Below are positions 2,661 through 21,470 of a stretch of DNA of 21,608 bases, one piece after another (position 1 is the first letter of the stretch; every line of letters begins with the position of its first letter). The stretch lies in IMG/VR virus record IMGVR_UViG_3300033153_005349, positions 1 to 21,608 of that record. One strand, written 5' to 3'. The translations under genes and the position numbers were made by a program. The stretch comes from a virus. The notes under the pieces were generated by a model that was not told the origin of the DNA, did no database searches, and saw only the letters and a program-made list of their open reading frames with translations.

Positions 2661-3575
2661 TCACTGTTTGCCTATTCTGTCTTGTGCTATTTTAAAATAT
2701 TTCTCTTCTTTTTCGATACCTATAAAACTTCTGTTTAAGTTCTTGCAAGATACGCCTGTTGTGCCTGATCCCATGAAACAATCAAGAATTAAATCATTTT
2801 CGTTAGTAGAATGTTTAATTATGTTTTCCATTAAATCAATTGGTTTTGGTGTTATATGCCCTTGTTTTTTGGCTATTTCATAATTCCATATTGAGTGATG
2901 TGTTTTTTGATTATTAAATGTATATCTCAAACTTTCGTATTCCTTTTTAACACTTTCATATGCTCTTTTATAGTGCCCTGTTCCCTGCAATTTTTTATAA
3001 TGCTTTTCTTCTGGGATCCTGTACTCGTGTGTTGTGGGCTTGTCCCAATAACACGAGCTAGCCTTTATACCTAAATATTTGTCACACTTATCATATGTCC
3101 ATCCGAGTTTTTCTCGTTCTCCCTTGAAGTATTGCATTACACTAGAAAACCCTGTTTCGTCTTGTAAAGTGTAATATAATATATATTCAGCCATTAATCT
3201 GTAGTTTCTGTCAATATTTGATTTAATAACATTGTCAAAATAATATTTTCTTGTACTTGCCTCATACCTTTTATTCCATACTATAAATTGTTTAAATACA
3301 TAATCTGTCTTTTCCGTTATTAAGTTTTGAATATTGACAATCTGCATAAAATCATTATGGAAAAAATAGAAAGATCCGTTATCCTTTAATAATTGCCTTG
3401 CTTTTGAAAAACAATTTACTAGCCATTCAGCATATTTAATTTTATCTTGCCACTTATCCCACTCGGCTTTTTTAATATTATATGGTGGATCTGTAATAAT
3501 AGCGTCGACTTTGACACCGTCTTTTATAAGTTCGTCCATTATTTCTAAACAATCGCCATGATACAACTCGATCAT
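2661..3575 (-). CDS. DNA adenine-N6 methyltransferase, beta class
   Basis: The enzyme transfers a methyl group from S-adenosylmethionine to adenine in DNA. Motif IV, DPPYN (residues 29-33), comes first and the SAM-binding motif FMGSGTT (about 267-273) comes last, the order of the beta class (N6_N4_Mtase family). DPPY rather than SPPY points to adenine. The region between them (about 120-220) is the probable target-recognition part. I chose ATG 3575 (304 aa), which overlaps the TerL stop as TAATG and has AGAGGTGG in front; a GTG two codons upstream is less likely. No restriction enzyme gene is nearby, so it is an orphan methylase, probably shielding phage DNA from host restriction. Its place between TerL and portal is unusual. 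Confidence 0.92.
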   Translation of the reverse strand: MIELYHGDCLEIMDELIKDGVKVDAIITDPPYNIKKAEWDKWQDKIKYAEWLVNCFSKARQLLKDNGSFYFFHNDFMQIVNIQNLITEKTDYVFKQFIVWNKRYEASTRKYYFDNVIKSNIDRNYRLMAEYILYYTLQDETGFSSVMQYFKGEREKLGWTYDKCDKYLGIKASSCYWDKPTTHEYRIPEEKHYKKLQGTGHYKRAYESVKKEYESLRYTFNNQKTHHSIWNYEIAKKQGHITPKPIDLMENIIKHSTNENDLILDCFMGSGTTGVSCKNLNRSFIGIEKEEKYFKIAQDRIGKQ

Positions 3576-4758
3576 TACCACCTCTCTATTATTGCGTACT
3601 CTTGTAGCCCTTCCAAACTATAACGTAGGGCGTCACAAATATGGTTGCTCTTATCTTCTGGCACGTTCATCAATTCGCCTGTTGTTGCGTTTTCCTTCCA
3701 TGAGTAATGTCTAAATTCGTCTATTGTTGCTTTACATCTAGGGTGTATATATATTCTATAAAAGCCCCTGATCTTTTGTATTCCGTCTATAATAGAACCA
3801 GCACCCTTCTTTGCACCCCTGATATTAAAGCCTTGATTATTCATATGGCTTATTGTCTCAGGTCTTGCACTATCTGCTATTATTAGATTCTTGTCTGAAT
3901 CCGGTACTATTCTAAATAAGGCTGGTGTATCGTCTAGGTCAACACCTATTCCATAACAATCAAAATCTATAAATAGCTCGTTGTCAATAACAAAACTACG
4001 TATTAAACAAGTTGGACTTTAGCGAACCCCCAGTCAGCACCGTAGTTAAGTTCTACATCTTTAGGTGTATCGAACTCTTTAACTTCCCACTTATCATAAA
4101 AGACTTGTGCTTCTGAGTGTAGAATGCACTTACCTTCCCACTTATGCAGATACTTGTCGTGGTCTGTCTTTTTGTCATATTCTAGTTCTTTTTTAAGTAC
4201 TTCTGGAAAGAATGGATTGTCTGAGTAGTTTATATTTATCTTCAAACAGTCGTCCCTATCTGCTAGGGTGTAGTCTTTATGTACTGGGTCATAGTCGTTA
4301 GTAGGGTTGTATGTAAATATTATCTGGCTGTTTGGCTTTCTGATGGTTGGTGTTAATATCTCTAATGACTTTCTACTCAATGACTGAGCTTCTTCACACC
4401 ATGCGTAATCTATACCTTCCATTGACTTAATAATATCAGGGTTGTGCTTTAGTCCATGAAACAATAACTCAGTCCCGTTCTGACCTTTTATAGCCCTGTC
4501 TGTAATATCAAAGAAAGACTCTAAACCTAAAGCCCTTATTCTGTCACAAAATAACTTATGTACTGAATCTTTAATTGATTTCTGTATCTCTCTAGTGTTG
4601 AGTATGCGTTTTCTGTTTTTAACTCCCTTAATCAATAAGAAGTCCGCTACTGTCCAACTCTTAGCCGATCCCCTACCGCCGTATATATCAATAAACCTGT
4701 CTTTAGCGTTGTAAAGAGGTAGCAGTTTATCTGGTATCTTTAGGTCTATATTAAGCAT
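3575..4758 (-). CDS. terL: Terminase large subunit, split by a frameshift
   Basis: TerL is the ATP-driven packaging motor and the nuclease that cuts concatemeric DNA. The first frame (4758-4003) has Walker A GGRGSAKS (residues 27-34), Walker B DYAWCEEAQ, and the motif TYNPTN, then GADWGF with the first nuclease Asp. The frame then stops. The other frame continues the same protein with FVIDNELFIDFDCYG, the second nuclease Asp in IIADSARPE, and the C-terminal NHICDALRYSLEG (stop at 3575). Adding one A to the AAA run at 4018-4020 joins them as GFAKSPTCLIRSFV, about 394 aa, a normal length for this family. The start ATG overlaps the preceding small gene and has little ribosome-binding site, so translation is probably coupled. 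Confidence 0.92.
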
Positions 4759-7445: not shown

Positions 7446-7547
7446 GGGCAAGGGCAGGATTCGAACCTGCACCCCTCCGCCTTGATCACAACACGCAATG
7501 TTTGTGTCTTCTATAGTGCGAAGCCTCTACCATTGAGCTACCTTGCC
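7446..7547 (-). tRNA. tRNA-like gene (Gly-type D arm) with about 30 extra bases in the anticodon region
   Basis: On the minus strand the 5' end GGCAAGG (7547-7541) pairs with CCTTGCC (7453-7447). TA, GCTC and the loop AATGGTA then form a D arm (its last pair is a G-G mismatch), and GCAGG-TTCGAAT-CCTGC is a perfect T arm. CCA is not encoded. The length of 102 bases is about 30 too many. A six-pair stem CTTCGC/GCGGAG (one T-G pair) fits the anticodon-stem position and leaves a canonical short variable region GGGT or GGGGT, but encloses about 37 bases instead of 7. An alternative local hairpin CTTC-GCACTATA-GAAG puts the extra bases in the variable region. No loop has a clean U33 plus anticodon, so I assign no amino acid. 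It could be an interrupted tRNA, a decayed tRNA, or a tRNA mimic. Confidence 0.65.
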
Positions 7548-21281: not shown

Positions 21282-21429
21282 TGGCAATGGCAAGGATTTG
21301 CACCCTGCATGTCTTAGCTTCGACATCGATTAAACCACTTTTATATGTTATCCAAGGTTCATATAATTTAAACTTACCCGACTGCTTAAACTTAGCCTAT
21401 TTAGCGTCTACCTATTCCGCCACATTGCC
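21282..21429 (-). tRNA. Leu-like tRNA gene with an enlarged interior (148 bases)
   Basis: The 5' end GGCAATG (21429-21423) pairs with CATTGCC (21289-21283), with A at 21282 as discriminator base. TGGCGGAATAGGTAGACGC is a textbook tRNA-Leu D region. The T arm is CAGGG-TGCAAAT-CCTTG with one extra C before the acceptor stem. ATGTC-GAAGCTAA-GACAT just before it fits a class II variable arm. Between D arm and variable arm are about 77 bases instead of about 18. TAAAT-AGGCTAA-GTTTA makes a five-pair, seven-base loop of anticodon-arm size, but position 33 is G, not U. A further hairpin TTATATG/CATATAA follows. No amino acid can be assigned from the loop; CCA is not encoded. Confidence 0.65.
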
Positions 21430-21441
21430 ATTTATAAGATG

Positions 21442-21470
21442 ACATTATTAAATAATACTTTAAATGTCAA
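21442..21470 (-). promoter_or_regulatory. Promoter of the leftward transcript starting at the tRNA-like gene
   Basis: Minus-strand TTGACA (21470-21465) preceded by AATAATAC, 17 bases, TAATGT (21447-21442). The predicted start lies only a few bases before the tRNA-like 5' end, so that gene is the first thing transcribed. Confidence 0.65.

Follow-up and report, generated by a model that had tools for sequence, protein, structure and literature searches.

The question raised by the minus strand of IMG/VR virus record IMGVR_UViG_3300033153_005349 at positions 21429..21282 is what an RNA can be that has the outline of a leucine transfer RNA (tRNA) and far too many bases in its middle. In the window, meaning the whole stretch of 21,608 nucleotides (nt) that was analysed, ARAGORN reported no tRNA anywhere, and Rfam left the element unmatched even at E<=5. 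A sequence-only reading had offered three explanations, namely an interrupted tRNA, a degenerate tRNA, or a tRNA-shaped RNA with another role. The last of these was supported and the first two were not. Judged from sequence comparison, the element belongs to a set of at least several hundred phage RNAs in which a constant tRNA-shaped frame, called the chassis here, carries a swappable folded domain, called the payload.

The whole RNA (21282..21429, minus strand, as are all parts given here) was 148 nt long, exceeding a tRNA-Leu by about 60. The 5' acceptor strand GGCAATG (21423..21429) was paired with the 3' strand CATTGCC (21283..21289) by seven Watson-Crick pairs out of seven, the discriminator A73 was found at 21282, and the CCA end was not encoded. 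The constant 5' core (21404..21422) was composed of U8 and GGCGGAATAGGTAGACGC, with the D arm at 21421-21404, the D stem GCG/CGC, G18, G19 and A15. It was followed by a variable insert of 95 nt (21309..21403), which ended in AU directly before the T stem and whose 3' end formed a variable-arm-like hairpin, AUGUC-8-GACAU (21309..21326), in the minimum free energy (MFE) fold. Further inside the insert, a candidate H-type pseudoknot (21333..21366) taken from the stem list, UUAUAUG/CAUAUAA crossed by AACC/GGUU, competed with an alternative hairpin, and MFE favoured the hairpin. The T arm GCAGGG-TGCAAAT-CCTTGC (21290..21308) had a stem of 6 base pairs (bp), giving an acceptor/T stack of 13 bp, and in its loop UGCAAAU the usual U55 was replaced by G. 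Acceptor, D and T stems were all recovered by unconstrained folding (z = -2.0). The parts seen by the sequence-only reading were found again on this strand: acceptor stem, Leu-like D arm, the hairpin before the T arm, the T arm, the surplus bases, three GTTTAA copies, and a local loop of 7 nt without U33. The 6-bp T stem and G55 had escaped that reading.

An exact scan for the 5' core gave 13 further viral contigs; the frame was common to all of them and the middle was different in nearly all. Patterns combining the D arm with the G55 T loop matched at least 120 viral contigs with inserts of 45-75 nt and again at least 120 with inserts of 76-106 nt. A genome-wide scan covering 84,980 species yielded 55 loci, about nine tenths of them assigned to Bacillota by name and the other six being metagenome bins, and in one sample from the family of Levilactobacillus brevis the narrow pattern was matched in 10 of 151 genomes. 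Part or all of the chassis was present in 133 phage records (Enterococcus, Lactobacillus, Listeria, Leuconostoc, Bacillus, Paenibacillus, a Synechococcus phage and others), of which some weak single-piece matches were ordinary tRNAs, such as the tRNA-Leu of the crAss-like cr53_1. Members without any RNA annotation were found in the records of SPP1, phi3T, Ln-9, EFDG1, VEsP-1, Maenad, BtpYZU01, phiJL-1, B025 and Pd_22F, which were examined in full. The SPP1 member, 110 nt long at 3423-3532 of X89721, sits between genes 9 and 11, and that of phi3T is 135 nt long. Directly after it, at about 3541-3590 of X89721 (L253), there is also a short tRNA-like stretch, ACGGAC...GCGGGTTCAATTCCCG..GTCCGT, which has no anticodon arm.

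The D-arm sequence was part of the search patterns, so its uniformity is partly ascertainment, and relaxed variants starting with GGTGG, GGCGA and GGTGT were found. A structural detector blind to D-arm sequence, which looked for a T arm, a 7-bp acceptor and a D arm within 96-260 nt, found 240 elements in 2.79 Mb of collected loci and 0 in shuffled copies. No family of Rfam 15 (copy of 30 Sep 2026) fitted these RNAs, and no description was found in the open-licence full-text literature, although an earlier account elsewhere is possible.

The chassis was made up of a 7-bp acceptor, U8, the D arm GGCGGAAUAGGUAGACGC with a 3-bp D stem, G18G19 and A15, U48, a 6-bp T stem and the T loop UGCAAAU. The window element carries every feature by which the family is defined, which are the 7-bp acceptor, U8, GGCGGAATAGGTAGACGC, an insert ending in U48, the 6-bp T stem and TGNRAAT. 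To assess conservation, each insert cluster was represented by a single member, 233 in all. Among these, the 11 variable pairs of the chassis were standard in 96.8% of cases, compared with 61.4% when partners were shuffled, and standard pairing in the acceptor dropped to 33-43% when the partners were slid by 1-3 positions. All four Watson-Crick pairs occurred at acceptor positions 1-6, with 160 distinct acceptor stems in total, and in two loci the D stem had undergone the compensatory change from GCG/CGC to GTG/CAC. The pairs of the chassis are therefore conserved by compensatory change across 233 independent members, which is not what a degenerate tRNA would show. U48, the base 5' of the T stem, was present in 237 of 237 members and no search pattern had fixed it; it can form the 15-48 tertiary pair with A15. 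The T stem had 6 bp in 240 of 244 unique members. The same search pattern with GGTTCRAATCC as its T-loop part and inserts of 55-85 nt gave 9 contigs, most of them clearly of the same family, against at least 120 for each of the GGTGNRAATCC scans; by these counts G55 is strongly preferred over U55.

Compared with a functional elongator tRNA for Leu or Ser, the acceptor stem and the D/T elbow were in place. TGCAAAT with a 6-bp T stem stood where TTCRANN with 5 bp would be needed, and an anticodon arm (5-bp stem, 7-nt loop, U33) was found in 1 of 228 unrelated inserts, with 1.9 expected by chance. Like class II tRNA-Leu, the family has U8, the same D arm, a 7-bp acceptor, the G18 G19 C56 elbow and a large element at the variable-arm position; unlike it, the family has no anticodon arm, a 6-bp T stem, G55, an insert of 41 to over 150 nt and a variable N73. 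Selenocysteine tRNA (tRNA-Sec) also combines a 13-bp acceptor/T stack with a long variable arm, as the family does in its own stack and its large element at that position. However, the stack of the family is 7+6 where the bacterial one is 8+5, the D arm is Leu-like, and there is no UCA anticodon arm.

The inserts were much more diverse than the chassis, with 286 distinct ones falling into 233 clusters between which no BLAST similarity was found. They were nevertheless folded more stably than dinucleotide shuffles (mean MFE z -0.79 over 228 clusters, control 0.05), and strong crossing stems were present in 15.7% of them against 2.7% in the control. Pseudoknots are often part of these folds. A helix whose 3' strand ended exactly 2 nt before the T stem was seen 120 times with 22 expected, so a helix in the variable-arm position is a common base of the insert. 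In one payload family of six members with an H-type pseudoknot, 25 of 25 pairs were intact in all six (100% of cells), both partners of six pseudoknot pairs had changed, no shuffle reached the covariation score, and no slide came near it. Invariant unpaired bases were seen in inserts as well, and the SPP1 RNA showed the same plan when folded freely. As a separate observation, whole tRNA-like or tandem T-arm-like hairpins (GGTTCGA..CC) occur in the payloads of L007 (about 587-706), L251, L063 and L311, whose sequence suggests that they are partly built from tRNA pieces.

Relatives with randomly decayed interiors, named by the sequence-only reading as the result to watch for, were not seen, and interiors were replaced as folded cassettes. 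Among pairs of loci with a common acceptor stem and a flank more than 80% identical, insert identity was below 60% in 69 of 141. The downstream flanks of L070 and L141 were 96% identical and those of L157 and L257 94% identical, and in both cases the payloads were unrelated. Conversely, L003 and L005 carried the same 49-nt insert letter for letter, with flanks at background identity and different acceptors (CCTTCCG and TATGTGG), and L049 and L069 likewise had an identical payload, unrelated flanks and different acceptor stems. At the level of sequence, these cases show that payloads are exchanged between phages as cassettes, and the uncoupling of flank and insert means that inserts move independently of their neighbourhood.

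From the anatomy, breadth and swapping observed here we infer how these RNAs are expressed, processed and used. The explanation we favour, at a probability of roughly 0.55, is that the tRNA-like chassis causes the RNA to be processed and protected like a tRNA and excluded from translation, so that it displays interchangeable effectors, likely against host factors such as those of defence. Host RNase P and RNase Z would excise the RNA from phage operon transcripts, and such cutting is expected from established tRNA biology because of the CCA-less 7-bp acceptor and the elbow. The tRNA-like ends would then shield it from exonucleases, the 13-bp stack and G55 would weaken binding of EF-Tu, and the missing anticodon would preclude decoding, so the RNA would be kept off the ribosome and could accumulate as a stable scaffold displaying the insert. 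In the non-proteinogenic tRNA-Gly of Staphylococcus aureus, altered elbow and T-arm bases are believed to weaken EF-Tu binding, so that the tRNA would evade EF-Tu and serve in the synthesis of the cell wall (PMC4052509). Such tRNAs are complete, with an anticodon arm and an altered G18G19, whereas the phage family keeps G18G19 and has no anticodon arm.

The payload would be the working part, which would most likely bind, mimic or sequester host factors that differ between hosts. Conflict with such factors would explain why diverse and swapped payloads sit on a fixed chassis. Anti-phage defence proteins are the leading candidate targets; the RNAs would probably be binders or decoys of them, and this is the weakest step of the explanation. 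Members also occur in SPP1, EFDG1 and phiJL-1, which count as lytic phages, and this makes a purely prophage-protective role less likely. More doubtful, and put forward tentatively, is a wider version in which phages mainly of Bacillota would share a horizontally exchanged repertoire of hundreds or more RNA effectors on one tRNA-derived scaffold, used against host defence and against other host factors.

Several points weigh against an effector scaffold of this kind. Its stability, its exclusion from translation and its effector role are all inferred steps. The folding of inserts is significant on average and modest per sequence. The insert of the window had no relatives among the sequences searched, so its internal fold is not settled. 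Uniform aminoacylation is unlikely because N73 was A in only 51% of the 233 representatives (A 119, T 66, G 24, C 24); uniform leucylation through A73 was rejected on account of this mixture, and leucylation is not claimed. Rfam gave the payloads no identity, the only match among payloads of the scanned loci being the tRNA embedded in L007, and a known RNA family as the payload was rejected for those loci. There was no excess of antisense match between a payload and its own phage locus (mean longest match 9.13 against 9.14), and an antisense role there was also rejected, since match length was at background.

It is conceivable, though unlikely, that the effector is the constant tRNA-like part, which would serve as a decoy of, or compete for, a host enzyme that handles tRNAs, such as a synthetase, RNase P or a tRNA-cutting defence nuclease; the insert would then do no more than stand in for the anticodon arm and protect the RNA. 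The chassis is after all the conserved part and has a Leu-type elbow, G55 and the 13-bp stack would bar it from translation, and phages have cause to block defences that target tRNA. But mere filler would not need to be transferred intact between phages, and the inserts are structurally constrained by covarying pseudoknots, invariant unpaired bases and folds more stable than shuffles. The mixed N73 also speaks against it.

Slightly less probable again is an RNA that works with the packaging machinery or the terminase, or that regulates the late operon in cis, which is brought to mind by the genomic position. The commonest annotated downstream families were TerL, TerS and HNH, 82 of 97 loci had their first downstream open reading frame (ORF) on the strand of the RNA, and several named phages have the member flanked by an ArpU-type or other transcription regulator on one side and terS on the other, or by terS and terL, or have it at the end of the genome. 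Members were also found in tRNA clusters, head operons and other regions, and the independence of inserts from their neighbourhood argues against both a cis-regulator and a partner of the adjacent terminase, as 94-96% identical flanks carried unrelated payloads and identical payloads lay beside unrelated DNA. The co-inheritance with the packaging motor expected of a packaging RNA (pRNA) was not observed, payload and flanks being uncoupled, and no tRNA-like form is known for phi29-type pRNA. The cabRNA of staphylococcal phages is also a structured RNA tied to the terminase region and is relevant to host immunity, but it lies within terS/terL transcripts, is about 400 nt long and was reported as hairpins that are not tRNA-like (PMC10686824).

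In the window, a short ORF with a ribosome-binding site was read directly, starting about 22 nt 3' of the element, and a search for relatives of the downstream gene gave none. A possible promoter, TTGACA-17-TAATGT (21442..21470, minus strand, 9/12 match), ends 12 nt upstream of the RNA. A dedicated sigma-A promoter for each RNA was rejected, as family-wide there was no excess over chance at two or three mismatches. Just 3' of one member, a gene for TnpB/OrfB (IS605) was observed (L207 2834-3958).

That the RNA mimics a tRNA by going into the A site, acting on the ribosome like transfer-messenger RNA (tmRNA) or in some other way, seems improbable. As in tmRNA (RF00023), tRNA-like ends close a long RNA bearing pseudoknots, and in EFDG1 a true phage tmRNA (L256 4645-4995, Rfam 140.6 bits), not in the feature table of that record, ends right before the member. 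Unlike tmRNA, the family has a canonical D stem, most members are about 150 nt or less, the chassis is their only common core, no tag frame is known, and no Rfam match reached the gathering threshold. No scanned member was covered by a tmRNA match, with only a fragment in L049 (17 nt, 17 bits, below cut-off), and G55 and the long stack speak against delivery by EF-Tu.

We give very little credit to a tRNA-Leu or tRNA-Ser split by a short intron, which the cloverleaf-like layout with surplus bases and the presence of an RNA ligase gene in the window could suggest. The inserts (41 to over 150 nt) are far below group I size and have no intron pattern in their lengths or ends, no common splice signals and, across 233 unrelated clusters, no shared borders save the AU beside the T stem; their removal restores no anticodon arm, which was found no more often than by chance, and no element of this kind was seen in the contig whose ligase is the 57%-identical homologue. 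A decaying tRNA pseudogene, hinted at by the failure of ARAGORN and Rfam to find the window element, is next to impossible given the perfect stems in the window and refuted at family level by the compensatory changes.

The ligase gene (PF09414, phrog_38169) is located at 15948-15235 on the minus strand, with its relative in L016, and could possibly be a tRNA repair or splicing enzyme, going by its sequence and its presence in a phage that also has two odd tRNA genes. A tie between it and the family element was rejected; L016 lacks such an element, and the near-identical L015 starts at the ligase. The second tRNA-like gene (7446..7547, minus strand) is outside the family. Its acceptor, D and T arms are perfect, it scores 43.6 bits against the Rfam tRNA family, its T loop is the canonical TTCGAAT, its anticodon loop has 37-39 nt, and the only near-identical copy found was in L015. 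Other tRNA-like genes, of about 115-120 nt, were observed in tRNA-rich phages (L316, L317 and L003, all minus strand, and L058 from 2434); their inserts of about 45 nt have in common a short hairpin with (U)ACAGCAA after it, and by sequence they may be a further family of tRNAs with inserts, or else small introns.

The Y RNA-like (YrlA) RNAs likewise couple a module that mimics tRNA to a functional domain of RNA, with their ends placed in the Y stem; in the phage family the ends form an acceptor stem and the payload is interchangeable. If the effector scaffold is real, it would be the natural counterpart of the engineered tRNA scaffold.

The family is a large class of unannotated phage RNA, present even in the model phages SPP1 and phi3T, and its members are overlooked by tRNA finders and phage annotation pipelines. 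It is modular, with a fixed tRNA-like handle and an exchangeable domain, and offers a testable case of a tRNA fold freed from translation. If the payloads are effectors, the family would parallel, in RNA, the swappable islands of anti-defence genes in phages, and would offer a library of RNA ligands already shaped by natural selection.
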